Shown: piece after piece, positions 25,503-38,707 of the stretch
How positions within the stretch are numbered: the stretch's first letter is position 1
Layout: the number at the start of each line of letters is the position of its first letter
NCBI GenBank assembly: GCA_016188705.1
Contig: JACPHH010000003.1
Coordinates: 1 to 45,586 of the forward strand
Direction: 5' to 3'
DNA length: 45,586 nucleotides
Origin: Candidatus Peregrinibacteria bacterium
GTDB lineage: Bacteria; Patescibacteriota; Gracilibacteria; UBA1369; JACRIC01
Translations under genes and position numbers: made by a program
Notes under the pieces: generated by a model
Databases searched by the model: none
The model's input: the letters and a program-made list of their open reading frames with translations, nothing else
Told to the model about the DNA's origin: nothing

Positions 25503-26065
25503 AGTATAAAAATATTTTTATCATAGACAATTTCGATTCTTTCACTTTCAATCTTGCTGATTATTTTAAACAATTAAAATGCGCGGTACATGTTTATAGA
25601 AACAACATTGACCCTCATGTCATAGAAAAAATTGCTCCCGATCTCGTTGTTATCTCCCCAGGACCGTCCATGCCAAAAAATGCCGGAAATGTAATGAAAA
25701 TTATTGATAAATACCACGCTCAATTTCCTATTTTTGGAGTTTGTTTGGGTCACGAAGCTTTGATCGAGTACTTTGGAGGAACACTCAAATTCGTGGATCC
25801 TGTACACGGAAAATCTTCTAAAATTCACCATGATTCCAAAGGAATTTTTCGAAACGTAGCGCAGGATTTTGATGCGGGAAGATACCACTCCTTAGTTGCG
25901 GATAAAGTACCTGATTGCTTTGAAAAATCAGCGACTTCTTGTGGCTTTGTAATGGCGATTCGTCACAAAAATTTATCAATAAACGGAGTTCAATTTCATC
26001 CGGAATCGATTCTCACCATGAAAGGTGGCAACGGCTTTAAAATTATTAAAAACGTAATTTCATGA
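25499..26065 (+). CDS. trpG: Anthranilate synthase component II (glutamine amidotransferase)
   Basis: Releases ammonia from glutamine for TrpE. The class I amidotransferase triad is complete: C82 in FGVCLGHEAL, and H167 and E169 in QFHPES. The oxyanion region SPGPSMPKNAG is at 53-63. The 188-residue length is normal. It overlaps trpE (ATGA) and the next gene by four bases, so the trio is translationally coupled. Confidence 0.96.
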   Translation: MKYKNIFIIDNFDSFTFNLADYFKQLKCAVHVYRNNIDPHVIEKIAPDLVVISPGPSMPKNAGNVMKIIDKYHAQFPIFGVCLGHEALIEYFGGTLKFVDPVHGKSSKIHHDSKGIFRNVAQDFDAGRYHSLVADKVPDCFEKSATSCGFVMAIRHKNLSINGVQFHPESILTMKGGNGFKIIKNVIS

Positions 26066-28992
26066 AACTCATTACCTTTTTCAAAAAAAGTATTGCAGGA
26101 GAGCTTTCAGCGGAAAAACAGATAAAGTTTTTAAATGCTGACCTAAACATCACGCCAAAAGAATTGGCGGCCACGGTACAATTTTTGCAAAGTCAGATTC
26201 CTAAAAAACCGCGCCTTGAAAATGCCATGGATGTCTGCGGAACAGGAGGTTCAGGACTTTTAAGAATCAATACTTCAACCATTGCGGCATTTCTACTTTC
26301 CTCGCTTGGTGTTGGAGTTGCCAAGCACGGAAACAAAGCGGCAAGCGGCAGATTTGGAAGTTTTGATCTTCTTGAATCGCTAGGCATTGAATTTACAGAT
26401 AATGTCATTGAAATTGAAGAAAAATACAAAAAGGAAAATATAGCGTTTCTCTTTGCTCCGTTTTTTCATCCAGTCATGAAACATTTTGCGGAAACGCGCA
26501 AAAAAATAGGCAAACCAACTTTTTTTAATCTTCTTGGTCCTCTTTTAAATCCCGCTTTTCCGAAAAAACAAATAATAGGCACGGCTTTTAGAGATAAAAT
26601 GCTCTTGATCGCCGAAACGTGCCGATTGCTCGGTAAAGAAAAAGTTTATGTGGTGTGTGGTGAAGACGGTTTGGATGAAGTAACTTTAACAGGACGAACA
26701 TTTGTCACGGAATTTTCAGATGGCACGATGAGATCTTATACGATATCGCCAAAGGATTTTGGGGTCTCAAAAGCGACTTTTTCCGAAATACAAGGCGGGA
26801 ATGCTGAGTTTAACACTGAAATTGCCCGAAAAATTCTTGCAGGGACTTGTAAAACACGTCATCAAGATCTGGTTTTAATGAATGTCGCCCTTGCGTTAAA
26901 GTTAGCGGATAAAGTTAAAACTCTCAAAGAAGGCTATAAAATGGCAACGCGCGCCATAAATATCCCAAGTATTCTTCTAAAAATAGTTGAACAAAAAAGA
27001 CTGGACGTCGAAAGGAGAAAGCGTAAAAATCCGATTAAAAATGTACATCCGTCAACTCGAAATTTTACTGCCGCTATTCAGGGCAATGATCTTGCTCTTA
27101 TTGCCGAAATAAAAAAAGCATCACCAAGCGAAGGAATAATCAATAAAAAGCGATTCTCTCCAGCTCTGATAGCAAAAAAATATGAAAGATTCGGCGCGAA
27201 TGCCATTTCCGTACTGTGCGACAAAAAGTTTTTTCACGGAGACATAAAACATCTTAAAAATGTTGCTGAAAATACATCGAAAATTCCTCTTCTGTGTAAG
27301 GATTTTATCATTGATGAATACCAAATGTATGAAGCAAGGAAGAATGGCGCCGACGCGATTTTGTTGATTGCTTCAATATTAACCGAGGAGCAAATACGCC
27401 ATTTTTTAGAAGTAGCAAAGAGCATGAAAATGGCTGTGATCTGCGAGGTTCACAACTTTGAAGAACTCAAAAAAGTTCTAAAAACTCCTGCAAAAATCAT
27501 CGGAATTAATAATCGAGATTTACACACATTTAAAATAAATATTTCTACCACGTTAGAGCTTGTTAAACATGTTCCTCCGGATAAGTTGATTATTTCTGAA
27601 AGCGGTTTTTCTTCCAAAAAGGATGTGGCTAAAGTTCGCGGAAAAGTTGATGCGATTCTGGTCGGCGCGGCTTTAATGAAAGGCGTAGACATCAGCGAGT
27701 TCACACAAAGAACGGCGATTGATCACGATAAAATAATACATTTTCCGAGAATAAAAGAGGTCATTCGTGTGACTAAAAAATACATGCTGAATAAAACCGG
27801 ACATTTTGGGAAGTTTGGTGGCCGATACATTCCTGAACTTTTAATTCCGATAATGGAAGAACTTGAGACAGCTTTTTATCAGGTCATAAAAGACCAGGGA
27901 TTTAAGAATGAACTAAAAAATCTTTATCAGAACTATTCAGGAAGGCCAACGCCTCTTTATTTTTGTGAAAATCTTACAAATTACCTTGGAGGCGCTCAAA
28001 TCTTTTTAAAAAATGAAGGACTGAATCACACTGGCGCCCATAAAATCAATCATTGTTTGGGGCAAGCTTTACTTGCAAAGCGGCTTGGGAAAAAACGTTT
28101 AATCGCCGAAACCGGAGCCGGACAGCATGGCCTCGCGACAGCAACTGTGGCAGCAAAATTTGGTTTGGATTGCGCTGTTTACATGGGCGCCAAAGATTTT
28201 AAAAGACAACTGCCCAATGTTTTTTTTATGGAGAGGCTTGGGGCTAAAGTCGTTCCCGTAAAACACGGTGGACAAATACTCAGAGACGCAATCAATGCAG
28301 CGTTAAAAGATTTAATGGCAAATCCTAAAGACACTCACTACTTGCTTGGAACTGTTTGCGGGCCACATCCTTATCCCGCTATGAATACTTATTTTCAAAG
28401 CATTGTTGGCCAAGAGGTTAAAAACCAGCTTTTTTCTCAAACCGGCAAAACGCCAGATTATTTAGTGGCATGCGTTGGAGGTGGAAGCAATGCCATGGGG
28501 CTTTTTTACGAATTTTTGAATGACAAAAATGTAAAAATGATTGGAGTGGAAGCCGGAGGAAAAAGAATTTCAGAAGACGATAAAAAGTGTCAGCATGCCG
28601 CAAGATTTCAAACAGGAAAAGTTGGTGTCGCGGAAGGATTCAAGTCATATTTTTTGCAAAATCAAGATGGGCAAATTAAAGAAACACATAGTATTTCCGC
28701 TGGACTTGATTATTCCGGTGTCGGCCCTCAAATCGCGTATTTAAAAGATATTGGACGGATTCAAATGAGTTATTCTTTTGATCGAGATGTTTTGCGGGCT
28801 TATGAATTACTTGCACGGCAGGAAGGAATTTTTGCGGCGCTCGAATCTTGTCATGCCCTTGCCGAGGTAATTAAATTGGCGCCAAAATTAAAGAAAGATA
28901 AAATTATTATTTTTAACTGTTCGGGTCGTGGAGATAAGGATCTTTTCATAGTCAGCAAAAAATTTAACTTTCAGCTACCGGAGCCGAAGTAA
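26062..28992 (+). CDS. trpDCB: TrpD-TrpC-TrpB triple fusion (anthranilate phosphoribosyltransferase, indole-glycerol-phosphate synthase, tryptophan synthase beta)
   Basis: One uninterrupted 976-codon frame. Residues 1-300 are TrpD, with the phosphoribosyl-pyrophosphate loop CGTGGSG (59-65) and KHGNKAASGRFGS (88-100). Residues 303-548 are TrpC, with IAEIKKASPSEG (347-358), the catalytic-type Lys in LCKDF (411-415), E462, NNRDL (483-487) and SESGF (512-516). A linker follows at about 550-572. Residues 575-976 are TrpB, with the PLP lysine K661 in HTGAHKIN, ETGAGQHG (683-690) and the phosphate-binding GGGSNA (806-811). All three domains look intact. The normal trpF between trpC and trpB is absent. 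The nearest internal start for a separate TrpB is an in-frame ATG at residue 575. Substrate hand-over between the domains is inference. Confidence 0.96.
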   Translation: MKLITFFKKSIAGELSAEKQIKFLNADLNITPKELAATVQFLQSQIPKKPRLENAMDVCGTGGSGLLRINTSTIAAFLLSSLGVGVAKHGNKAASGRFGSFDLLESLGIEFTDNVIEIEEKYKKENIAFLFAPFFHPVMKHFAETRKKIGKPTFFNLLGPLLNPAFPKKQIIGTAFRDKMLLIAETCRLLGKEKVYVVCGEDGLDEVTLTGRTFVTEFSDGTMRSYTISPKDFGVSKATFSEIQGGNAEFNTEIARKILAGTCKTRHQDLVLMNVALALKLADKVKTLKEGYKMATRAINIPSILLKIVEQKRLDVERRKRKNPIKNVHPSTRNFTAAIQGNDLALIAEIKKASPSEGIINKKRFSPALIAKKYERFGANAISVLCDKKFFHGDIKHLKNVAENTSKIPLLCKDFIIDEYQMYEARKNGADAILLIASILTEEQIRHFLEVAKSMKMAVICEVHNFEELKKVLKTPAKIIGINNRDLHTFKINISTTLELVKHVPPDKLIISESGFSSKKDVAKVRGKVDAILVGAALMKGVDISEFTQRTAIDHDKIIHFPRIKEVIRVTKKYMLNKTGHFGKFGGRYIPELLIPIMEELETAFYQVIKDQGFKNELKNLYQNYSGRPTPLYFCENLTNYLGGAQIFLKNEGLNHTGAHKINHCLGQALLAKRLGKKRLIAETGAGQHGLATATVAAKFGLDCAVYMGAKDFKRQLPNVFFMERLGAKVVPVKHGGQILRDAINAALKDLMANPKDTHYLLGTVCGPHPYPAMNTYFQSIVGQEVKNQLFSQTGKTPDYLVACVGGGSNAMGLFYEFLNDKNVKMIGVEAGGKRISEDDKKCQHAARFQTGKVGVAEGFKSYFLQNQDGQIKETHSISAGLDYSGVGPQIAYLKDIGRIQMSYSFDRDVLRAYELLARQEGIFAALESCHALAEVIKLAPKLKKDKIIIFNCSGRGDKDLFIVSKKFNFQLPEPK

Positions 28993-29017: not shown

Positions 29018-29791
29018 ATGAAAAATAATTTAATGACACATGTCGTCGCGGGTTATCCCAGTATGAAAAATTGTGAGGAAATTGTTATGGCAATGGCTAA
29101 AATGGGAGTCGCTTTTATTGAAATTCAAATACCTTTTTCTGATCCGATTGCTGACGGGCCAACAATTATGCATGCAAACGAACAAGCTCTTTTAAACGGG
29201 GTAACAACAGAGGACTGCTTCAAGCTCATTAAAAGACTAAAAAAGGAGATCGATACCCCTATTCTTATAATGACATATTTCAACATTCCTTTTCGTTATG
29301 GATTAGAAAAGTTTTGTATGAAAGCTCAAGAATGTCAGGTTTATGGCTTAATTATTCCGGACATCCCGATTGATGAAGAAAAATATGAAAATTATCTTGG
29401 CAATTGCAAAAAATATGGATTGCATGCGATACAGATCATTTCTCTTATAACGCCAGAAAAAAGATTAAAAAGAATTTCTAAGGTTGCAAGTGGTTTTGTG
29501 TATTGCGTATCAACATTTGGAACAACTGGAGAACGGGAGCAACTGAATCCTGATCTAGGTTCTTACATTAAAAAGGTTAAAAAATATATCAAAACGCCTT
29601 TAGCTTTGGGGTTTGGCATTTCCAGCAAAGATCAAGTATCAATGGCTCTCAAATATGCAGATATTGCAGTCGTTGGGAGTAAAATCATCAACATTCTAAA
29701 CTCATCCAAAAAAGATACAATAAACGAGCTAAAAATTTTCTTAAAGAATTTGATATTTTGTTGCACTTCATTTTTGATTATACTCGTTTAA
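29018..29791 (+). CDS. trpA: Tryptophan synthase alpha subunit
   Basis: Cleaves indole-3-glycerol phosphate and passes indole to TrpB. Catalytic acids E35 and D46 sit in FIEIQIPFSDPIADGP, with the same 11-residue spacing as E49/D60 of E. coli. The phosphate-binding FGTTGER and LGFGISS are also present. At 257 residues it is about 10-14 short at the N-terminus. The C-terminus ends in an unusual hydrophobic FCCTSFLIILV, whose last codons overlap the convergent argH by 14 bp. The gene follows the fusion after 25 bp. Its partner TrpB is the third domain of that fusion. Confidence 0.95.
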   Translation: MKNNLMTHVVAGYPSMKNCEEIVMAMAKMGVAFIEIQIPFSDPIADGPTIMHANEQALLNGVTTEDCFKLIKRLKKEIDTPILIMTYFNIPFRYGLEKFCMKAQECQVYGLIIPDIPIDEEKYENYLGNCKKYGLHAIQIISLITPEKRLKRISKVASGFVYCVSTFGTTGEREQLNPDLGSYIKKVKKYIKTPLALGFGISSKDQVSMALKYADIAVVGSKIINILNSSKKDTINELKIFLKNLIFCCTSFLIILV

Positions 29792-31067
29792 TTAAATTTT
29801 TATAGTATTGCAAATTTAAATTCCCTGGCGCGCCAAGATGCTTTTTCGATTTAAGATTTTCTATCACGTTTGGAGGTTTAATTTTATTCAAAACATTGGC
29901 AGTTTTTTTATAAGCATCTCGAAATGGAATCCCTTCCTGCGCTAATCTATTTACTTGATCGGTTGCAAAAATTTCAGGATGCATTGCGTGTTCTAACTTT
30001 TCTAGGTTCGGAATGATATTAGAAAAAAGCAATTTAATAATGGATAAACTTTCTAAAACTATAAGAAAAGCTTCTAATAAGGGCTTTTTTGTTATTTTCA
30101 AATCCTTATTGTATCCAGAAAGCAGGTTTAAACTGACGCTCTGAATCTGCGTTTGGCATGACATTACCACGTGAACATTTGCCCTCAACACTTCCATGAT
30201 GTCGAGATTCTGCTTTTGAGGCATGATACTGGAACCCGTGGCGAGACTTTTATTCACATTAAAAAAAGAAAATTCCGTGCTGGTAAACCACACCATGTCA
30301 TTGGCAATTTTTCCCAATGTCATCATGACTTGAAAAAGAGCGCTGACAACAAAGCTTTCAATTTTTCCTCTGCTGTTTTGGCAGTAAAGCGTATTAAGTT
30401 GAAGCTTTTTGAATCCTAATTTTTTCGTCGTATATTCTCTATCAATAGGTAAGCTTGTGCCAAAACCCGCAGCGGATCCAAGTGGATTTTGGTCATTTAA
30501 TTCGTAGGCCGCCTCCAAGAGCTTAACATCGTCTAAAAGCGATTCCACGAATGCGCCAGCCCACTGCCCAACGCTTGACGGCATGGCTTGTTGGGTGTGA
30601 GTGTAGCCAGGCATAGGCACAAATTCGTGCTGCTGTGCAAAATTCAGAATAGTTTTTGCAGTTTCTAAAACCTGCTTCTGAACTTCTTGAAGTTTTTCTT
30701 TAGAGTAAAGTCTCAATGCCGTAAGCACTTGATCGTTTCTCGATCTGCCCATATGTATTTTTTTTCCAATGTCACCAATTTTTTCAACGAGATAATTTTC
30801 AATCGCCGTGTGACAATCTTCATCTTCCTGCTTAAGAGCAAATTGCCCTTTTTTATCGAGTAAAAAAATTTCTTTTAATGTTCTTACTAGCGCGAAAGCT
30901 TCTTTTTTTGAAATCAGCCCTACATGTGCAAGCATTTTCGCATGAGCTATTGAAGCTAGGATGTCGTATTTGAGTAAAAGCTTATCTTGCGCGCAGTCTT
31001 TGCTGATAATATATTTTGTAACGAGTGGATGAGTTTTAGTTCCTGATTTTTGCCAAAGTTTAGCCAT
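29778..31067 (-). CDS. argH: Argininosuccinate lyase
   Basis: Splits argininosuccinate into arginine and fumarate; last gene of the arg operon. The 429-residue product has the fumarase/aspartase superfamily signature GSSIMPQKQN near residue 280 (the usual Lys after Gln-Lys is Gln). It also has MGRSRNDQV (about 107-115), GYTHTQQAMP (with the general acid/base His) and NPLGSAAGFGTS. The start ATG follows the deacylase gene by 38 bp, containing a dispersed repeat. Stop overlaps trpA. Confidence 0.95.
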   Translation of the reverse strand: MAKLWQKSGTKTHPLVTKYIISKDCAQDKLLLKYDILASIAHAKMLAHVGLISKKEAFALVRTLKEIFLLDKKGQFALKQEDEDCHTAIENYLVEKIGDIGKKIHMGRSRNDQVLTALRLYSKEKLQEVQKQVLETAKTILNFAQQHEFVPMPGYTHTQQAMPSSVGQWAGAFVESLLDDVKLLEAAYELNDQNPLGSAAGFGTSLPIDREYTTKKLGFKKLQLNTLYCQNSRGKIESFVVSALFQVMMTLGKIANDMVWFTSTEFSFFNVNKSLATGSSIMPQKQNLDIMEVLRANVHVVMSCQTQIQSVSLNLLSGYNKDLKITKKPLLEAFLIVLESLSIIKLLFSNIIPNLEKLEHAMHPEIFATDQVNRLAQEGIPFRDAYKKTANVLNKIKPPNVIENLKSKKHLGAPGNLNLQYYKNLIKRV

Positions 31068-31080
31068 ATAAAAATATTTA

Positions 31081-31118
31081 AAATTTTGTTACGAAGTTAC
31101 GTTTTTCAGTAGTTCCCT
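31081..31118 (-). repeat. GGAACCTCTGAAAAACGT-family repeat at the deacylase stop
   Basis: In minus orientation: GGGAACTACTGAAAAACGT, then AACTTCGTAACAAAATTT. It matches the short form at 17403-17442 closely. The TGA stop of the deacylase gene (31106-31108) is the TGA of CTGAAAAACG. Confidence 0.8.
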
Positions 31119-32002
31119 AAATAACATGCGGGTGTTCCCGGAATAATTTTTCTCTTCGGAAAAATAACAAACGAGACTTTTGTCGCTCTGTAAATCTTTC
31201 CTTGGTCCTCAGCGATTATTTCGCCTTTTTTAACGATATCAAAATTCGAAAAATCTTTTTTAAAATGAAAATGAAGACTTTGCGGAATCACATAATCATT
31301 TATTTCCACTTTTTTAGGAATTTTTTGAGATTTTTTTGAATTGGCAAAGGATGATTGTAAACTGCCGACTGCCTCGAGAAATTTATACGTTTTTGTCATG
31401 GCTTCAGAAAAAATAATCTGCCCTTCCAGCCACCCGGCCTCATAGGTAAAGCCTAAACCTCCATGCTGATCCACATAATTATCAGTGGACGAAGCGAGCT
31501 CGGAAATTCGGCAGTGAGTCGCGGGAAAAACCACATATTCTGTTTCAAATACATACGCGAACTTGAGATGCGCTTTCGTTTTTTCGCAGTAAACGAAAGG
31601 CACCGATGGCTTCATCGTGGCATGAATATCCAAAAGATAATCAGCTTTTTCTAAAAAAGGCGCGATTTCGATAGCTCTTTTTTCTTCAATGTTAAGAGTA
31701 CTCACTGCTTTTTTCTTTAAAATTTCGATCTGCGCGCCAAAAAGTCTATTGAGATCAGAGTGAATACATCGCTGATGCTGAGCGTATGCCACCGGATTAC
31801 CAATGATCAAAACGAGTTCTCCATAAAGATTTTCAGGTTGTATCTCGTGCCACAAACTCTCGACCACGGCTTTTCCAAGCCTTTCGTTGCCATGAACAGC
31901 TCCCATGATAACAACGCATGGACCATTTTTTTTACCTTGAACGCATTTAATATTTGATGGAAGTGTTTTCAGCCGAATTTTGCAATGTGCGGTAGTAAGC
32001 AT
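31106..32002 (-). CDS. AstE/AspA-type zinc deacylase, likely N-acyl-citrulline (or -ornithine) deacylase
   Basis: M14-fold metallohydrolase of the succinylglutamate desuccinylase/aspartoacylase family, 298 residues. Zinc ligands H37 and E40 (GAVHGNE) and H127 (LLDIHAT), the substrate-binding NR pair (85-86, DLNRLFG) and the catalytic Glu E188 (TYEAGW) are all visible. Members remove N-acyl groups from amino acids. Lying between argB and argH in an operon with no argE or argJ, it is the natural candidate for removing the acyl group. Because the carbamoyltransferase is of the acyl-ornithine type, N-acyl-citrulline is the more likely substrate. Acetyl versus succinyl cannot be told from sequence. 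Confidence 0.85.
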   Translation of the reverse strand: MLTTAHCKIRLKTLPSNIKCVQGKKNGPCVVIMGAVHGNERLGKAVVESLWHEIQPENLYGELVLIIGNPVAYAQHQRCIHSDLNRLFGAQIEILKKKAVSTLNIEEKRAIEIAPFLEKADYLLDIHATMKPSVPFVYCEKTKAHLKFAYVFETEYVVFPATHCRISELASSTDNYVDQHGGLGFTYEAGWLEGQIIFSEAMTKTYKFLEAVGSLQSSFANSKKSQKIPKKVEINDYVIPQSLHFHFKKDFSNFDIVKKGEIIAEDQGKIYRATKVSFVIFPKRKIIPGTPACYLGNY

Positions 32003-32007
32003 ATGTA

Positions 32008-32865
32008 TCAGAGTTTTTTTAAATAAAATTGTTTTTCTTTTTCTGAAGTGATCATTGTTCCGATTCCTTTTTTGGTCAGTACTTCGACGAGTAAGCTGTG
32101 CTTCGAAAGACCGTTTACAATGTGAACTCTCTTTACTCCGCCCTGAAGCGCGGCAATAGCATTATTGAGTTTTACCGCCATTCCATCTTTGGCGATCGAA
32201 TGTGAAATCATTTCAAAAGCTTGTTCTGCCGTTATAACGCTCAGCAATTTTTTGCCGTGATAGACTCCTCGAGCGCTGGTAAATATAATCAATTTTTCCG
32301 TTTTGAGCGTGATCGCTATTTCCGCGGCGATTGTATCGGCGTTGATATTGAGAATTATTCCATCGTTGTCGCTCGCGAGCGGAGAAACAACGGGAATATA
32401 CCCTTTCGCCAAAACATCAAACAAGACTTGAGGATTCACTGCGTCAACGTCGCCAACATATCCGAAATCAAATTCTTTTGTGTCTCGAATATGAACTTCA
32501 AGAAAATTGCCATCCAAACCGCTTATCCTTATCCCTTTCATATTGAGCTTTTTCATCAAGCTTAAAATTTCTACATTAAGACTTCCTCCATACAGCATTT
32601 TCGCGATTTCAAGATCCTGCTGGCTGGTTACTCGTCTGCCGTTTATTTTCACCGGCGTATGGCCGATTTGAGCAGCCAATAGATCAGCCTGTTTCCCTCC
32701 GCCATGAACTAAAATAATTTTAATGCCAGCTTCGGTGAGCTTTTTTATATCTTTCAAAATAGATTCAAGCGCGTTTTTTTCCGCCACAACTTCTCCACCG
32801 ATTTTTAAAACAAAAATTTTATTTTGAAATTTCGCCAGATAGTGTTTTTTCTTTGAATAAGACAT
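32008..32865 (-). CDS. argB: N-acetylglutamate kinase (acyl-glutamate kinase)
   Basis: Phosphorylates N-acyl-glutamate, second step of arginine synthesis. Start placed at the ATG at 32865 (285 residues, MSYSKKK). A longer frame from 32940 would begin inside the repeat element and adds a repeat-derived 25 residues. Amino-acid-kinase motifs are KIGGEVV, the glycine loop HGGGKQ, GGSLNVEI, and the nucleotide-binding region from IIFTSARGVY. It lacks the long N-terminal helix of the arginine-inhibited hexameric type, so it may be less feedback-sensitive. Five bases separate it from the deacylase gene. Confidence 0.94.
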   Translation of the reverse strand: MSYSKKKHYLAKFQNKIFVLKIGGEVVAEKNALESILKDIKKLTEAGIKIILVHGGGKQADLLAAQIGHTPVKINGRRVTSQQDLEIAKMLYGGSLNVEILSLMKKLNMKGIRISGLDGNFLEVHIRDTKEFDFGYVGDVDAVNPQVLFDVLAKGYIPVVSPLASDNDGIILNINADTIAAEIAITLKTEKLIIFTSARGVYHGKKLLSVITAEQAFEMISHSIAKDGMAVKLNNAIAALQGGVKRVHIVNGLSKHSLLVEVLTKKGIGTMITSEKEKQFYLKKL

Positions 32866-32877
32866 GCAATTATAATT

Positions 32878-33044
32878 AAGGAACCTCTGAAAAACGTGCT
32901 TACTACTGCAATTTGCAAACTTTGGCTGCAAATTTTTCACCGCTCCTTGAGCGTATCTTATCTGATACGCCTTCGTCGCGGTTCAAAATTTTCGCACAAA
33001 GTTTGCAAATTTCGTGACGAAACCACGTTTTTCAGAGGTTCCTT
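32878..33044. mobile_element. 167-bp MITE-like palindromic element between argD and argB
   Basis: Perfect 21-bp terminal inverted repeats (32878-32898, beginning AAGGAACCTCTG, and 33024-33044) bound the element. An inner perfect 14-bp pair follows, ATTTGCAAACTTTG (32911-32924) and CAAAGTTTGCAAAT (32997-33010), and a third imperfect pair around AATTTTTCACCGC. The apex hairpin is GCGTATC-GATACGC (32951-32970). The whole can fold into one long stem. It is non-autonomous, and no target-site duplication is obvious. It provides the stop and last ~19 codons of argD. Confidence 0.8.
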
Positions 33045-34197
33045 GAGTAAGTACTTGAAAAAATAATTTCACGAAAAGATCGATTTCGTTTTTGCTTACT
33101 GTGAGCGGAGGCATAATTCGGAAAACTTTTTTATTATAAGAAGTTCCCAAAATAAAGCCGTTTTCAAGGCAAAGTTCTACAAAATGCGGCATCGGTTTCG
33201 TGAATTCGATTCCAAGAAGTAACCCTTGGCCTTTCACGCAGGCAATGAGCGGATGCGCCGTAAGTTTTTTTCGAATATATGCTTCTTTATTTTTAACGTT
33301 GGCTAAAAAGCCTGGTTGTAAAATTGTTTTTATTGTTGCTAAACCCGCCGCGCATACCGCGGGTCCTCCTCCAAAAGTCGTCGCATGATCGCCAATTTTA
33401 ATTTTCGCGCTGATTCTTTTTTTTACGATCACGGCGGCAAGCGGTAATCCACACGCGATTCCTTTGGCGCTGGTAATGATGTGCGGAAAAACACCCACAT
33501 TTCGCGCGAACCAAAAAGTTCCCGTTCTACCAAGTCCTGTTTGCACTTCATCAAAAATAAGCAGGATGTTTTTTTCTTTGCAGAACTGAGCCAAAGCCTT
33601 ATAAAATTCCGGTTTTGCCATGTTCATGCCACCGATACTTTGAATTGGCTCGCATATAACCGCCGCGGTGTCAGGTTTCCAAGCCGATTTGACGCTATTC
33701 ATGTCTCCCAACTCCGCAAATGAAGTGAAGTCATCGATATTTGGAACGCATTGATGGTATGAATTAATCCCTGTAACGCCAAGAGCAGTTATACCTCTTC
33801 CATGAAATGAATTTTTAAATGAAATAATATGTTTTTTTCCTGTATGTTTTCGCGCGATTTTAAGCGCTGTTTCATTGGCTTCCGATCCGGAGTTTGTAAA
33901 ATACACTTGGTATTTTTTTGGTTTTAAAGTAAGAGCAACCTGCTCGGCGAGTAAGATCGCGGGCGCCGTGTTAAAAATATTTGAATAGAAAATGAGTTTT
34001 TTGGCTTGCTGACACAGAGCATTGAGTGTCTCTTTTGGGTTATGTCCGAGTAAACACACCGCGTGTCCTCCATAAAAATCGAGATATTTTTTACCATTAT
34101 TATCCCAAACAAAACTTCCTTTTCCTTGTGTCAATTGGATAGGATATTTCACATAGGTGTTTATGAGATAGTGATGGGCTTTTTCAAAGAGTTTCAT
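32983..34197 (-). CDS. argD: Acetylornithine (N-acyl-ornithine) aminotransferase
   Basis: PLP enzyme that makes N-acyl-ornithine from the semialdehyde; 404 residues. Fold-type I class III features are NSGSEANETALK (102-113), FHGR (131-134), D216 in FDEVQTG and the PLP lysine K245 in SAKGIACG. The C-terminus is odd: residues from about 386 (GTSEKRGFVTKFANFVRKF) are encoded by the MITE-like element, so the native end was probably near residue 385. The gene is otherwise intact, and its end lies 118 bp from argB. Confidence 0.94.
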   Translation of the reverse strand: MKLFEKAHHYLINTYVKYPIQLTQGKGSFVWDNNGKKYLDFYGGHAVCLLGHNPKETLNALCQQAKKLIFYSNIFNTAPAILLAEQVALTLKPKKYQVYFTNSGSEANETALKIARKHTGKKHIISFKNSFHGRGITALGVTGINSYHQCVPNIDDFTSFAELGDMNSVKSAWKPDTAAVICEPIQSIGGMNMAKPEFYKALAQFCKEKNILLIFDEVQTGLGRTGTFWFARNVGVFPHIITSAKGIACGLPLAAVIVKKRISAKIKIGDHATTFGGGPAVCAAGLATIKTILQPGFLANVKNKEAYIRKKLTAHPLIACVKGQGLLLGIEFTKPMPHFVELCLENGFILGTSYNKKVFRIMPPLTVSKNEIDLFVKLFFQVLTQGTSEKRGFVTKFANFVRKF

Positions 34198-34206
34198 ATA
34201 ATTGTA

Positions 34207-35238
34207 TTATGGAAAAATGGGGCTTATAGGTTTTAAACCTAAAGTTTCATCAAATCCGCACATGATATTCATATTTTGAATTGCCGTTCCCGCGGCGCCT
34301 CGAACGAGGTTGTCGATAACCGCTTGAATAATGAATTTTCCATTCACGTTATGCACGGCGATGTCACAAAAATTTGAACCAATAACATCCGCGAGTTGCA
34401 CATTTTTTTTCATTCGCACGAATGGAGCTTTCGCGTAGGTTTTTTTATACAAATTCATAATTTTTTTTTGAGAAAATTTTTTTTGAAAATAAAAATACGC
34501 GGTGAGATGAATGCCCCGTGTAAAAGGGCCTCTTGTCGGCACAAAAGTGAGCTGCGATTTTTCAATTTCGAGTTCTTGGATAATTTCAGGAATATGCTGA
34601 TGAACACCAATTTTATAGCTTGTCACATTATGATTTCTGATTGAATGATGTGTCTCGTCTTGAGGTTTTTTCCCCGCGCCGCTTGAGCCAGTTATGGCAA
34701 AAAGAGAAACATGTTCAATACATCCTTTTAAAGGAAGAATGGCCAGTTCCGCGGTGATGGCAAAACAGCCAGGGTTAGCGATATTTTGAGCAGAAACGAT
34801 TTTTTCTTTATGGAGTTCAGGAAGCCCGTATATAAATTGAGAAAGACCTTCGGCATAATCATGTTCATGGTCGTAATATTGAGCGTATAGACTTTTATCA
34901 TGGAGTCGGAAATCAGCCGAGAGATCAATAATCTTCGTTTTATTGATAATGATTGGAACGATTTTTTGGCTTTCATGATGAGGAAGCGCCAAAAAAACGA
35001 CATCACTTTCTTCCGCGACTTTTTGAACATCCATGTCAGTCAGATCAAGATCACAGATATTTTTTAAATGCGGCCAAACATCGCTTATCTTTTGTCCGTA
35101 ATCTTTCGAATGTTCGCCATGAGTTTTTGAAACAAGATATTTGAGTTTTACGTACGGATGATTCACGAGCAGTCTGATAAGTTCGATGCCAGTAAATCCC
35201 GTTACGCCGATAATGGAAATATTTATTTTTTTAAACAT
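34207..35238 (-). CDS. argC: N-acetyl-gamma-glutamyl-phosphate reductase
   Basis: NADPH-dependent reduction of acyl-glutamyl phosphate to the semialdehyde; 343 residues. The Rossmann motif GVTGFTGIEL (11-20), catalytic C158 in ANPGCFAI and the HQHIPE patch (213-218) are in place, and SGAGK matches the family. Start overlaps the end of the upstream P-loop gene by 16 bp; argD follows after 9 bp. Confidence 0.96.
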   Translation of the reverse strand: MFKKINISIIGVTGFTGIELIRLLVNHPYVKLKYLVSKTHGEHSKDYGQKISDVWPHLKNICDLDLTDMDVQKVAEESDVVFLALPHHESQKIVPIIINKTKIIDLSADFRLHDKSLYAQYYDHEHDYAEGLSQFIYGLPELHKEKIVSAQNIANPGCFAITAELAILPLKGCIEHVSLFAITGSSGAGKKPQDETHHSIRNHNVTSYKIGVHQHIPEIIQELEIEKSQLTFVPTRGPFTRGIHLTAYFYFQKKFSQKKIMNLYKKTYAKAPFVRMKKNVQLADVIGSNFCDIAVHNVNGKFIIQAVIDNLVRGAAGTAIQNMNIMCGFDETLGLKPISPIFP

Positions 35239-36398
35239 GTTGAAAGTAAATGATCGAATAATTGCTCGCCATAAAAAAGAGCGTTAAAAGCAGGCACATG
35301 AAGATTGTCTTTTACAAATTTCACGCCGACGCTGTTATCGGTTACTGGTCCGGAAATGAGATCAATTGGCGCGCCGATTTCTGCGCATACTTCGACCAAT
35401 TTCGCGGCGCCCATCGGATCATGCGCGCAGCCTACGTGAGCGATGATATTTTTTTGTATTTCTTTATCTTTGAGAATTTTCATCACGCCGTATTCGCCAT
35501 ACACTCCATCCCCAAATTCGATAACGATACAATGCGGCTGGCCATTTGCAAGATAATCAATAGCTCCTTTTGAGATTTCAACGGCTTTATCACCGTTATT
35601 TACGGTTGAAGTGAAGCCCGCGTCCACAAAAGTCACCGCTTCTTTCGCGCCGTAATCTTTCATGTTTTCGGTGTCCCGAAGAGCCGCTACTCCCGCGAGT
35701 TTCGCGGCAAAAACTTTATATTTTTTTCGATGAGCATGTTTGATAATTTCACAGGCAACCGATGTTTTACCAACATTCATGCATGTTCCGCTTACAACAA
35801 TAAGTGGGATGGTTGATTCTAACCTCATTTTTGGCGAAAAAAGCGTGAATTGTTTTATATTGAGAGAATGTTCGCAGGCATTCATTTCAATAGCGCCAAA
35901 AGTTTTCGCTGGAACGGCGTCAAGCGTTTTCGTTACAACGACGCCAAGCGATTTCATTGGAACGACACCAAACGTTTTTGTCGCAACAGCTCCAAGTGTT
36001 TTCGCTGCAATGGCGCCAAGCACTTTCGCTTTCAAAGAATGGCCAACTTCTTTTAAATTTTCGCTTGTACAAAGACCAGCCACGCCACCTAAATTTAAAA
36101 TATTGATGGTATCTCCAACAGCAAGTGTTTTCGGTACTTCTCCCACAAAGCCTTTGAGAGCCCTTCTGTTACCAAGCGCCACGGCGACAATATCGCCTTT
36201 TTTTAATATCGACAGACGACCTGACGCAAGCTCAACTTGGTTATATATTTTTTTATCTTCCAAAATTTTTACTACGAGCAAACTACCTTCCCGTGCGACA
36301 ATTTTTTCCGTGATGGTGACTTCTTGAGGGAGGTTCGCGTTTTTTGTAACGGAAGCAATTTTATCAAGCACTATGTTCAAATGAAGATTGGATTGCAT
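35223..36398 (-). CDS. P-loop protein (dethiobiotin-synthetase/DUF1611-like) with octapeptide repeats; role in arginine operon unknown
   Basis: Not recognised with certainty. Start at the ATG at 36398 (391 residues); a longer frame from 36476 overlaps argF'. Residues 1-110 form a beta-rich domain (GDIVAVALGNRRALKGFVG). Residues 125-172 are six octapeptide repeats of the type KTLGAVAT. A SIMIBI-type P-loop GTCMNVGKT (204-212) follows, with the same spacing as GTDTEVGKT of dethiobiotin synthetase, then AAKLAGVAALRDT and an acidic IEFGDGVYGEYG (293-304). DUF1611 proteins, some reported as D-glutamate N-acetyltransferases, share this P-loop style. Placed between argF' and argC in an operon with no recognisable ArgA/ArgJ, it is a candidate for the missing acyl-glutamate-forming step. 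That is inference only. Confidence 0.7.
   Translation of the reverse strand: MQSNLHLNIVLDKIASVTKNANLPQEVTITEKIVAREGSLLVVKILEDKKIYNQVELASGRLSILKKGDIVAVALGNRRALKGFVGEVPKTLAVGDTINILNLGGVAGLCTSENLKEVGHSLKAKVLGAIAAKTLGAVATKTFGVVPMKSLGVVVTKTLDAVPAKTFGAIEMNACEHSLNIKQFTLFSPKMRLESTIPLIVVSGTCMNVGKTSVACEIIKHAHRKKYKVFAAKLAGVAALRDTENMKDYGAKEAVTFVDAGFTSTVNNGDKAVEISKGAIDYLANGQPHCIVIEFGDGVYGEYGVMKILKDKEIQKNIIAHVGCAHDPMGAAKLVEVCAEIGAPIDLISGPVTDNSVGVKFVKDNLHVPAFNALFYGEQLFDHLLSTCLKK
35881..36024 (-). repeat. Six in-phase 24-bp tandem repeats coding octapeptides
   Basis: Units at 35881-35904, 35905-35928, 35929-35952, 35953-35976, 35977-36000 and 36001-36024, all exactly 24 bp with no indel. On the coding strand they read K-(T/V/S)-(L/F)-(G/D)-(A/V)-(V/I)-x-x: KVLGAIAA, KTLGAVAT, KTFGVVPM, KSLGVVVT, KTLDAVPA, KTFGAIEM. 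Third-position and conservative changes outnumber frame-breaking ones. Confidence 0.92.
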
Positions 36399-36420: not shown

Positions 36421-37440
36421 TTAAAGTAAATAAAAAATAAGAGCCATTTGAACCCACATTCGATTTTCTGCTTCATCGATGACTTTTGACCGCGGGCTGT
36501 CTAAAACGCCATCGGTTACTTCAATATTTCGACGGACGGGCAAGCAATGAAGAAAAAGAGCATTATTGGTAAGCTTCATTTTTTCTTCATTCAAAATCCA
36601 ATGTTCAAACTGTTTTCTATAATCGCTTTCTTTGTCCCAATGACCGAAATATTGAAGAGACGCCCAACTTTTTGCAACAACAACGTCAGCATTTTTAAAA
36701 GTTTCATATTGGTCATGAGAAATTTTGACCGAGCCGCCTGCTAGCAAAGCTTTTTCTTGAGCCATTTTCAAAACATCACTATCAAGATCGAAACCAAGAG
36801 GATGAACAACGGTTACATTCATGCCAAAAAGCGCGGGCATCAGAAGCTGTGAATGAGGCGTCGCCAAAGGGAGCGCTTTTATATGAGGAGACCAAGTGAG
36901 TACGTACTTTTTCTTTTTTATATTTCCAAATGTTTCCTTCATCGTCATTACGTCCGCCATGGCTTGGCAAGGATGAAACATATTAGACTCCATATTGATA
37001 ACGGGTTTCTCGGCATACGTCGCGAGCTTCGAAATGGCCTCATCTTGCTTTAATATTTCCCACGATGATATGCTGTTATGCCGTGATGCCGTAGTGACAA
37101 GTTCACTTTGTCGCAGCGCGATAACGTCGCTGTATCGAGAAATAACTTTTGCGCCTTCTTTGACATGTTCTTGCTTATCGCCATTCATCACGGCGCCATT
37201 TTTATATTCAAACTGCCATGAATTGCCGGCGTGCAAAACATTTACTTCACCTTTCATTTTTTTCATTCCTGATTCGAATGAAAGATGGGTTCGGAGCGAC
37301 GGATTCGCGAAAATCAAGGTGAGCATTTTTCCAGAAAGATCAGGTATTTTTATGCCTTTTTTATATGACATTGCAAGATGTATAATTTTTTCTAATTCTT
37401 GCAATGAATATTCCGCGCCGGTAATAAAATTTTTTTTCAT
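36421..37440 (-). CDS. argF': N-acyl-ornithine carbamoyltransferase (AOTCase/SOTCase type)
   Basis: Transfers the carbamoyl group to N-acyl-ornithine, giving N-acyl-citrulline. Start at 37440 (339 residues), overlapping argG by ATGA; a longer frame is out of line with the family. Motifs are the carbamoyl-phosphate loop NPSLRTHLSFE (46-56), GAVMNGD (82-88), FHPCQ (155-159), KYVLTWSPHIKALP (178-191), AKSWASLQYFGHW (256-268), and LTNN with HCLPVRRN (290-305). These match Xanthomonas N-acetylornithine and Bacteroides N-succinylornithine transcarbamylases much better than ordinary OTCases. At the residue that switches acetyl (Glu92) and succinyl (Pro90) specificity this protein has Gln90 (GDKQEH). 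Confidence 0.88.
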   Translation of the reverse strand: MKKNFITGAEYSLQELEKIIHLAMSYKKGIKIPDLSGKMLTLIFANPSLRTHLSFESGMKKMKGEVNVLHAGNSWQFEYKNGAVMNGDKQEHVKEGAKVISRYSDVIALRQSELVTTASRHNSISSWEILKQDEAISKLATYAEKPVINMESNMFHPCQAMADVMTMKETFGNIKKKKYVLTWSPHIKALPLATPHSQLLMPALFGMNVTVVHPLGFDLDSDVLKMAQEKALLAGGSVKISHDQYETFKNADVVVAKSWASLQYFGHWDKESDYRKQFEHWILNEEKMKLTNNALFLHCLPVRRNIEVTDGVLDSPRSKVIDEAENRMWVQMALIFYLL

Positions 37441-38627
37441 ATTTTTTTGTTGATAAAAAAGGCATGCGTGCTCTCCATGCCATAAAGTTTGCAAAATCCC
37501 CGTGCTTCTTTGCCGCTCCATGAGCCGATTTTTTCACCATATATTCCGAATTTGGAACTCATGAGCGAGTATGGGCTTTTGAGAGAAGTAATCATGAAAT
37601 TCCCTTTATGAATCTGAATCCCGACCTCGCCTTCAACATGAGCGTTTGCCGAATCAAGAAAAGCTTCTATGTTTCTCAGGAGCGGATCAAAATAAAGGCC
37701 TTCATGAATGAAATCACCGTATGTTGTTCCGAGAATACTTTTCCAAAAAATCTGTTTGGAAGTCAGAACAATTTTTTCGAGTTCGCCATGAGCTTTAATA
37801 AGAATTTTCAATCCAGGAGCTTCAAAGGCAATTCGGCCTTTTATGCCAATTATCGTGGTTCCAATATGATAATCTTTTCCAAATCCGTTCGCCGCGCCAA
37901 TTTGATTAAGCTTTTTAATAATCTTTATTCCTGTCATTTTTTTTCCATTCAATCCAGTTGGAAGACCTTTTTGAAATTGAAGAGTAAAATATGCAGGTTC
38001 TTTTTTCCCCGAAGTTTTTACCGTGGGCCAAATTTCGTCTGGCAATTTCTGTTCTAAATTGAGCGTTTCCGCGCCTGAAATGGTAGTTCCCAGTAGACCA
38101 ATATTGATCGAATATTTGCTCTTTTCGGTGTTGATATCAAAACCATTTTTTTGTAAAAATTCGACCTCCTGTTTTCGAGTCAAATTTTCATCTCGAATGG
38201 GCGCCACAATGACGACTTCAGGAATAAGGGCTTTGAGCGCGAGATCAAATCGAACTTGATCATTTCCTGCTCCAGTCGATCCATGCGCGACAATTTTTGT
38301 TTTTTCCAAATTCGCGATTGCCGCGACTTCCTCCGCGATCACATTTCTTTCTGGTCCAACGCAGGCTGGATACACGCCGCCTTTAAGATAATTGGCTTTA
38401 ATGAGATAACTCGCGAAATATTTATAAAGCGTATTTTGAGCATCTTTTGTGTAATGCTTTTCAGATCCGAGCTGTTTCGCTTTTTTCTCAATTTGCTTCA
38501 ATTGCTGAAATGAAAACCCGCCGGTGTTTACTGTTACCGTAATAACTTCGTATCCCTTCTCTTTAAGAAATGGAATGCAAAAACTGGTATCAAGACCACC
38601 TGAGAAAGCAAGGATGACTTTGTTCAT
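37437..38627 (-). CDS. argG: Argininosuccinate synthase
   Basis: ATP-dependent joining of citrulline and aspartate. Start at the ATG at 38627 (396 residues), since a longer frame would run into the T-box terminator. The N-terminal ATP pyrophosphatase loop LAFSGGLDTS (5-14) is intact. Family motifs such as AHGSTGAGNDQVRFD and KEPAYFTLQFQKG are present. First gene of the arg operon, under the T-box leader. Confidence 0.95.
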   Translation of the reverse strand: MNKVILAFSGGLDTSFCIPFLKEKGYEVITVTVNTGGFSFQQLKQIEKKAKQLGSEKHYTKDAQNTLYKYFASYLIKANYLKGGVYPACVGPERNVIAEEVAAIANLEKTKIVAHGSTGAGNDQVRFDLALKALIPEVVIVAPIRDENLTRKQEVEFLQKNGFDINTEKSKYSINIGLLGTTISGAETLNLEQKLPDEIWPTVKTSGKKEPAYFTLQFQKGLPTGLNGKKMTGIKIIKKLNQIGAANGFGKDYHIGTTIIGIKGRIAFEAPGLKILIKAHGELEKIVLTSKQIFWKSILGTTYGDFIHEGLYFDPLLRNIEAFLDSANAHVEGEVGIQIHKGNFMITSLKSPYSLMSSKFGIYGEKIGSWSGKEARGFCKLYGMESTHAFFINKKI

Positions 38628-38648
38628 AGAGATAAAAAAATGAAAATA

Positions 38649-38707
38649 AAAAAAACTCACGCCTCTGCACCTGTAGAACGATCTACAGATGAAGGAGCGA
38701 GAGTTTT
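38649..38707 (-). terminator. T-box terminator
   Basis: Minus strand: AACTC/GAGTT closes a long imperfect stem (with CGC/GCG and ATCTGTAGA/TCTACAGGT) around loop TCGT, followed by eight T. It ends about 20 bp upstream of the argG ATG. Confidence 0.88.

Follow-up and report, generated by a model that had tools for sequence, protein, structure and literature searches.

A P-loop protein encoded within an arginine operon of a Peregrinibacteria genome as a candidate N-acyl-L-glutamate synthase

Which protein forms N-acylglutamate in an organism whose arginine operon encodes every later step? Annotated genomes repeatedly lack a gene for this first step of arginine synthesis, and in other phyla the gap has been filled by new enzymes, either GNATs or an M20 homolog (PMC7311316, PMC9026213). 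Here we analyzed a stretch of 45,586 nucleotides from a Candidatus Peregrinibacteria genome (contig JACPHH010000003.1; hereafter the window) in which a 391-amino-acid P-loop protein, denoted X, is encoded in the midst of arginine genes.

An arginine operon with one step unaccounted for

The operon lies on the minus strand in the order argG, acylornithine carbamoyltransferase, X, argC, argD, argB, AstE/aspartoacylase-like deacylase, and argH (Table 1). The genes beside X cover all steps from N-acylglutamate to arginine; the formation of N-acylglutamate alone is without a known gene. Because the acylornithine-type carbamoyltransferase and the acetylglutamate-type ArgB both score over their cut-offs, the pathway needs an acylated start, that is, N-acylglutamate. 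LysW-type kinase models gave lower scores for this ArgB (118 bits versus 205.6 bits for TIGR00761). The original prediction of a P-loop ORF that overlaps argC within an arg operon describes the locus correctly: the ORF is real, with an ATG at 36398 and a stop codon at 35225-35223, and all of its neighbors are arg genes. Its stop end overlaps argC (start at 35238) by 16 bases, and its start lies 22 bases past the stop of the carbamoyltransferase gene (36421). A plus-strand ORF for the same interval was rejected, there being no long ORF in frame. Two bacterial groups have homologs of 48-67% identity in which the loop retains its G, M, G, K, and T, so the ORF is more than chance; the best homolog matches in the window's order were Peregrinibacteria records.

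Neither an ArgJ nor a credible ArgA was found elsewhere in the organism's own genome (1.37 Mb, 94.65% complete), in agreement with the original claim that the first step has no recognizable gene. ArgJ gave no match there, in a search that was positive in 10 of 14 control genomes. The GNAT search, based on PF00583 (GNATs outside this family could escape it) and positive in 14/14 controls, returned three matches: a GNAT domain inside UvrC, Elp3 itself, and a 294-amino-acid GNAT-type protein. The last of these (L009) had as its only homolog among 58 relatives one weak 20-bit match, and thus cannot be a conserved pathway enzyme. The UvrC excinuclease subunit (L008:1033-3180, minus strand, in G000:C14) carries its GNAT domain in mid-protein, at about residues 455-578.

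Table 1. Features of the arginine operon and of gene X in the window
Feature	Position	Strand	Basis
argH, argininosuccinate lyase	29778..31067	-	TIGR00838, 307.6 bits, over cut-off
AstE/aspartoacylase-like deacylase, presumed acylcitrulline deacylase	31106..32002	-	PF24827, 1.2e-23
argB, N-acylglutamate kinase, 310 aa, without GNAT domain	32008..32940	-	TIGR00761, 205.6 bits, over cut-off
argD, acylornithine aminotransferase	32983..34197	-	TIGR00707, 373.8 bits, just below cut-off of 410
argC, N-acyl-gamma-glutamyl-phosphate reductase	34207..35238	-	TIGR01850, 365.7 bits, over cut-off
Gene X, candidate N-acyl-L-glutamate synthase	35223..36398	-	Translation, homologs, structure model (pTM 0.80), fold search
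Walker A (P-loop) GTCMNVGKT, residues 204-212	35763..35789	-	Translation, conservation
24-bp tandem repeat, 5.7 copies, interdomain linker insert	35893..36028	-	Repeat detection, alignment gap in relatives, low pLDDT at 137-176
Acylornithine carbamoyltransferase (acetyl/succinylornithine type)	36421..37521	-	NF003384, 369.8 bits, cut-off 288
argG, argininosuccinate synthase	37437..38660	-	TIGR00032, 318.6 bits, over cut-off

On the plus strand of the window, at 26062-28992, three tryptophan enzymes are fused in a single 976-amino-acid product: TrpD, of the glycosyl transferase family; TrpC, or IGPS; and a PALP domain taken to be TrpB. A separate trpF was not seen near it.

Co-occurrence with argC and exchange at the arg locus

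X was surveyed in two sets of genomes, most of them MAGs. In the window's order, 14 of 59 genomes had X and 9 had argC over its cut-off, and the two co-occurred (Fisher p 2.8e-4). The operon order of the window recurs, as far as contigs reach, at L001, L002, L004, L032, L034, L035, and L037. In total, with L002 and L004 included, eight X genes lie in arg operons of this arrangement and eight elsewhere; relatives of X are therefore not consistently outside arg operons, as they would have to be to speak against the original prediction. A phylogenetic tree grouped the window's arg-operon copy with those of L001, L002, L032, L034, L035, and L037 in one supported set, which also took in L038 (SH-aLRT 95). 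Copies from the window's order that lie outside arg operons fell on other branches, implying repeated gain or loss of the association with arg genes (at fewest four changes).

The second set, reached via the homolog at L006, comprised 142 genomes of the order of Micavibrio (Alphaproteobacteria), which is unrelated to the window's order and whose X copies fell outside the window's arg-operon set in the tree. Full-length X was encoded by 38 of the 142 genomes, all 38 of which also had argC, and by none of the 87 that lacked argC (Fisher p 1.4e-21, with relatedness ignored); one argC-less genome, G083, had only a distant X paralog. In 37 of the 38, X was immediately upstream of argC, with both genes on one strand; in the exception, G127, the two are on different contigs. 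ArgJ was found in a single genome of the 142 and in 0 of the 38 with X.

Genomes with argC that lacked X showed what can stand in its place. In Micavibrio relatives of this kind, a GNAT was found beside argC or within the operon (loci L129, L137, L140, and L135; genomes G075, G104, G119, and G099), and 4 of 17 X-negative genomes, compared with 0 of 38 X-positive ones, had a match at E<1e-60 to the GNAT family of G075, G104, and G119 (L129, L137, and L140; Fisher p 0.007). In the window's order, G045 has a LysX beside argC, and G048 has an argC-argJ pair and also carries X. G007 has two argC loci, one an X-type acyl arg operon (L032) and the other with a LysX ligase beside argC (L063). That X is exchanged at the arg locus with GNAT, ArgJ, and LysX, three enzymes that share a step but are unrelated to X, points to the first step and is our main argument for function.

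Together, gene order, co-occurrence, and replacement give good support, drawn from genomic context, to the original proposal that X is an acyl-glutamate-forming enzyme. The neighbors of a distant homolog in a Priestia megaterium cluster, described below, also speak for it. Weighing against it are seven relatives that carry X but no argC, the presence of both X and ArgJ in G048, and 12 Micavibrio relatives with argC in whose arg locus neither X nor a recognizable replacement was seen. We put the probability at roughly three in four that X is a non-orthologous N-acyl-L-glutamate synthase, with either acyl donor (an acyl-CoA, or a free acid plus ATP) included in that estimate. The enzyme step is known; the protein family that would perform it appears to be new.

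Fold, conserved residues, and relation to known families

X consists of an N-terminal all-beta domain (about residues 1-131) and a SIMIBI/BioD-like P-loop domain (about residues 195-391); the AlphaFold model had a mean pLDDT of 76 and a pTM of 0.80. In the linker between the two domains, the 24-bp repeat adds about 40 amino acids, and among aligned relatives only the window copy has it. Within the Walker A motif of 25 family members, M207, G210, K211, and T212 were invariant and G204 nearly so, and all five residues were conserved throughout the wider superfamily. The latter includes a distant group (Micavibrio paralogs L179-L183 plus proteins of Paracoccus and Sulfitobacter) that is homologous to X over both domains (hhalign E 3.7e-40, 306 columns). 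Residues conserved in X and its distant homologs alike were K13, R61, D69, R78, the GxxMxxGKT loop, K233, D242, D248, D259, S264, T265, E294, D297, and G298. Those conserved in X only (among them Y52, E56, N102, E117, H321, C324, D354, and N355) are candidates for the substrate site.

Among solved structures, the P-loop domain was best matched by 2obn, a DUF1611 protein (E 6.7e-6; TM score 0.35 when normalized by the whole query), which ranked first, and by 1dts, a dethiobiotin synthetase (E 8.5e-6). When modeled by itself, the N-terminal domain yielded a structure of low confidence that matched no PDB entry at an E value below 0.8 and had no recognized fold. In a deep-profile sequence search of the PDB, X was without a significant match, and its paralogs matched only the loop region of dethiobiotin synthetase. 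X fell under every Pfam and NCBIfam cut-off, its P-loop region giving weak matches to CbiA and DUF1611.

The original description of the loop as of dethiobiotin/DUF1611 style is apt in that these are the structurally nearest relatives of the P-loop domain, but it does not extend to membership in DUF1611. The best E value for PF07755 (gathering score, 25 bits) among X members was 2.7e-4, and none exceeded the cut-off; the window protein itself gave no DUF1611 match at E values up to 10, and the DUF1611_N family (PF17396) was matched by no X member. With its all-beta N-terminal domain, X was therefore rejected as a DUF1611 protein. The DUF1611 proteins (PF07755/PF17396; solved examples, 2obn of Ava_3511 and 2g0t of TM0796) share with X a P-loop fold and a proposed N-acylation of glutamate, but the two are 13% identical, the PF07755 match is mainly to the loop region, and the context is D-glutamate breakdown for DUF1611 versus an arginine operon for X. 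The DUF1611 protein DgcN is reported to be a D-glutamate N-acetyltransferase; a search of the accessible literature for this precedent, which the original prediction invokes for DUF1611 members, found none.

Like X, BioD (TIGR00347; 1dts and 3fgn) has a SIMIBI P-loop domain with a GTxxxxGKT-style Walker A, and the conserved E-x-x-D-G of X may match its E-G-x-G-G. BioD, however, has one domain only, some 220 amino acids long, whereas X has the extra beta domain, is about 12-15% identical to it, and is encoded in an arg operon. The window protein gave no match to TIGR00347, and its distant homologs reached at most 26 bits against a cut-off of 83; an identity as dethiobiotin synthetase was rejected on both the score and the architecture.

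The first-step enzymes known to date are GNATs (ArgA, S-NAGS, Cg3035, and ArgA2) and ArgJ, to which a predicted M20-like ArgA3 has been added (PMC3827942, PMC9026213, PMC7311316). All of these resemble X in their place in the pathway and in the operon but belong to unrelated protein families. Neither X nor its relatives matched a GNAT profile, which excludes a GNAT synthase (ArgA, S-NAGS, or ArgA2), and X had no match to PF01960, which excludes ArgJ. A LysX/ArgX enzyme of the LysW type was rejected by profiles, and the ArgB and carbamoyltransferase of the window are of the acetylglutamate and acylornithine types, respectively.

Proposed reaction and competing explanations

We propose that X would convert L-glutamate and an acyl-CoA to N-acyl-L-glutamate and CoA. 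The P-loop would, in the reading that we prefer, hold the pyrophosphate of acyl-CoA, or else ATP, and E294 and D297, together with R61 and R78 of the beta domain, might complete the site. The product would then be carried to arginine by ArgB, ArgC, ArgD, the acylornithine carbamoyltransferase, the AstE-like deacylase, ArgG, and ArgH. The acyl group would more likely be acetyl than succinyl. At the presumed acyl-specificity position of the carbamoyltransferase, placed here by matching the GDxxEH motif, the window has Gln (GDKQEH), and some relatives have Ser or Ala. The position that switches between acetyl and succinyl is S, P, A, or V in succinyl-preferring forms, as cited in PMC7311316. In the Bacteroides-type pathway, the intermediates are succinylated and ArgF3/SOTCase works with ArgA2 (PMC9026213, PMC7311316). 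The window's operon is like that pathway in combining an acylornithine carbamoyltransferase with a late deacylase; it differs in that its first enzyme would be X rather than the GNAT ArgA2, its deacylase is AstE-like, and the carbamoyltransferase position holds Gln in place of S, P, A, or V.

Counting against an acyl-CoA donor, the loop of X and the acidic residues surrounding it are of a fold type that uses NTPs and is not a known acyl-CoA binder. X might instead be an ATP-dependent ligase that joins free acetate, succinate, or formate to the amine of glutamate and re-uses the acid released by the deacylase. This variant of the main reading is possible and takes a minor share of the total probability. 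Dethiobiotin synthetase and formyltetrahydrofolate synthetase activate a free carboxylate with ATP, the usual chemistry of the fold, and the SIMIBI-type nucleotide binders 2obn and 1dts are the nearest folds to X. Positions of the kind found in Mg-ATP sites (the GKT of the loop, D242, D248, D259, E294, and D297) are also conserved across the superfamily. An acyl-phosphate or acid-binding motif, however, was not assignable in X, and the DUF1611 enzyme acting on glutamate is reported to be an acetyltransferase, both of which count against the ligase.

An accessory or regulatory role for X in arginine synthesis, as a supplier of carbamoyl phosphate, an activator, or a nucleotide sensor, with an unrecognized acetyltransferase elsewhere performing the first step, seems unlikely. 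SIMIBI proteins do include regulators and ATP-dependent N-carboxylating enzymes, and X adjoins the carbamoyltransferase gene in the window. Moreover, in 12 argC-positive, X-negative Micavibrio relatives (L126-L128, L130-L134, L138, L139, L141, and L142), the arg-locus stretches read, some of which end at contig ends, showed no X and no GNAT or other recognizable substitute for it, which leaves room for a hidden first enzyme in those genomes. Such a role would nevertheless leave the swapping of X with a GNAT, ArgJ, or LysX at the arg locus unexplained, and the sole unexplained GNAT of the window's own genome is not conserved in relatives.

X could also be an N-acyltransferase that acts on another amino acid or on a peptide and hitchhikes in arg operons, which we consider improbable. 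In the window's order, X occurs without argC in seven relatives (G002, G009, G015, G026, G035, G049, and G053), so the family has at least one further role there, perhaps in supplying N-acyl amino acids for another purpose. The X copies at three loci in argC-less genomes (L029, L030, and L033), outside arg operons, adjoin one or two genes for RimK-type ATP-grasp ligases. Distant paralogs lie near an ABC transporter (L012, L013, and L186) or near polyamine genes: at L181:4036-10982, in a Micavibrio relative, an X paralog is found near genes of the ornithine/arginine decarboxylase and agmatine deiminase (PAD_porph) types, which suggests a polyamine-linked role for that paralog. These contexts favor the hitchhiker reading, but two bacterial groups far apart from one another conserve the adjacency to argC, and among the Micavibrio-order genomes the dependence of X on argC is strict. 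Finally, the reduced genomes of Patescibacteria-like organisms would allow that the first step was lost and that X either survives as a remnant or uses N-acylglutamate taken up from outside, which is highly improbable given that the X frame is intact, that residues of catalytic type are invariant in 25 members, and that X tracks with complete arg operons.

If X is the N-acyl-L-glutamate synthase that we propose, it would be another unrelated solution to the first step, from a family unnamed in Pfam and NCBIfam, and seeming arginine auxotrophs among Peregrinibacteria-like and Micavibrio-group genomes would become predicted prototrophs. It would also assign a function to a superfamily some of whose members are encoded in gene clusters for phosphonates and polyamines. 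We advance only tentatively, as rather doubtful, the larger proposal that X founds a new synthase class that combines a SIMIBI P-loop domain with a new beta domain. This class would work as an ATP-dependent ligase, starting arginine synthesis without acyl-CoA, and would belong to a wider family acylating amines and amino acids that the profile libraries used here leave unnamed and that would include the homologs in a Priestia phosphonate cluster and beside polyamine genes. One further match (H21) came from a phage, in an unannotated, unverified record with no arg genes nearby. The Priestia homolog, 26% identical to X, is encoded on a Priestia megaterium plasmid (L011:2736-11424) in an apparent phosphonate natural-product cluster with genes for a PEP mutase, a split TPP enzyme, two ATP-grasp ligases, a carbamoyltransferase, and an M20 deacylase, neighbors that fit with N-acylation of amino acids.
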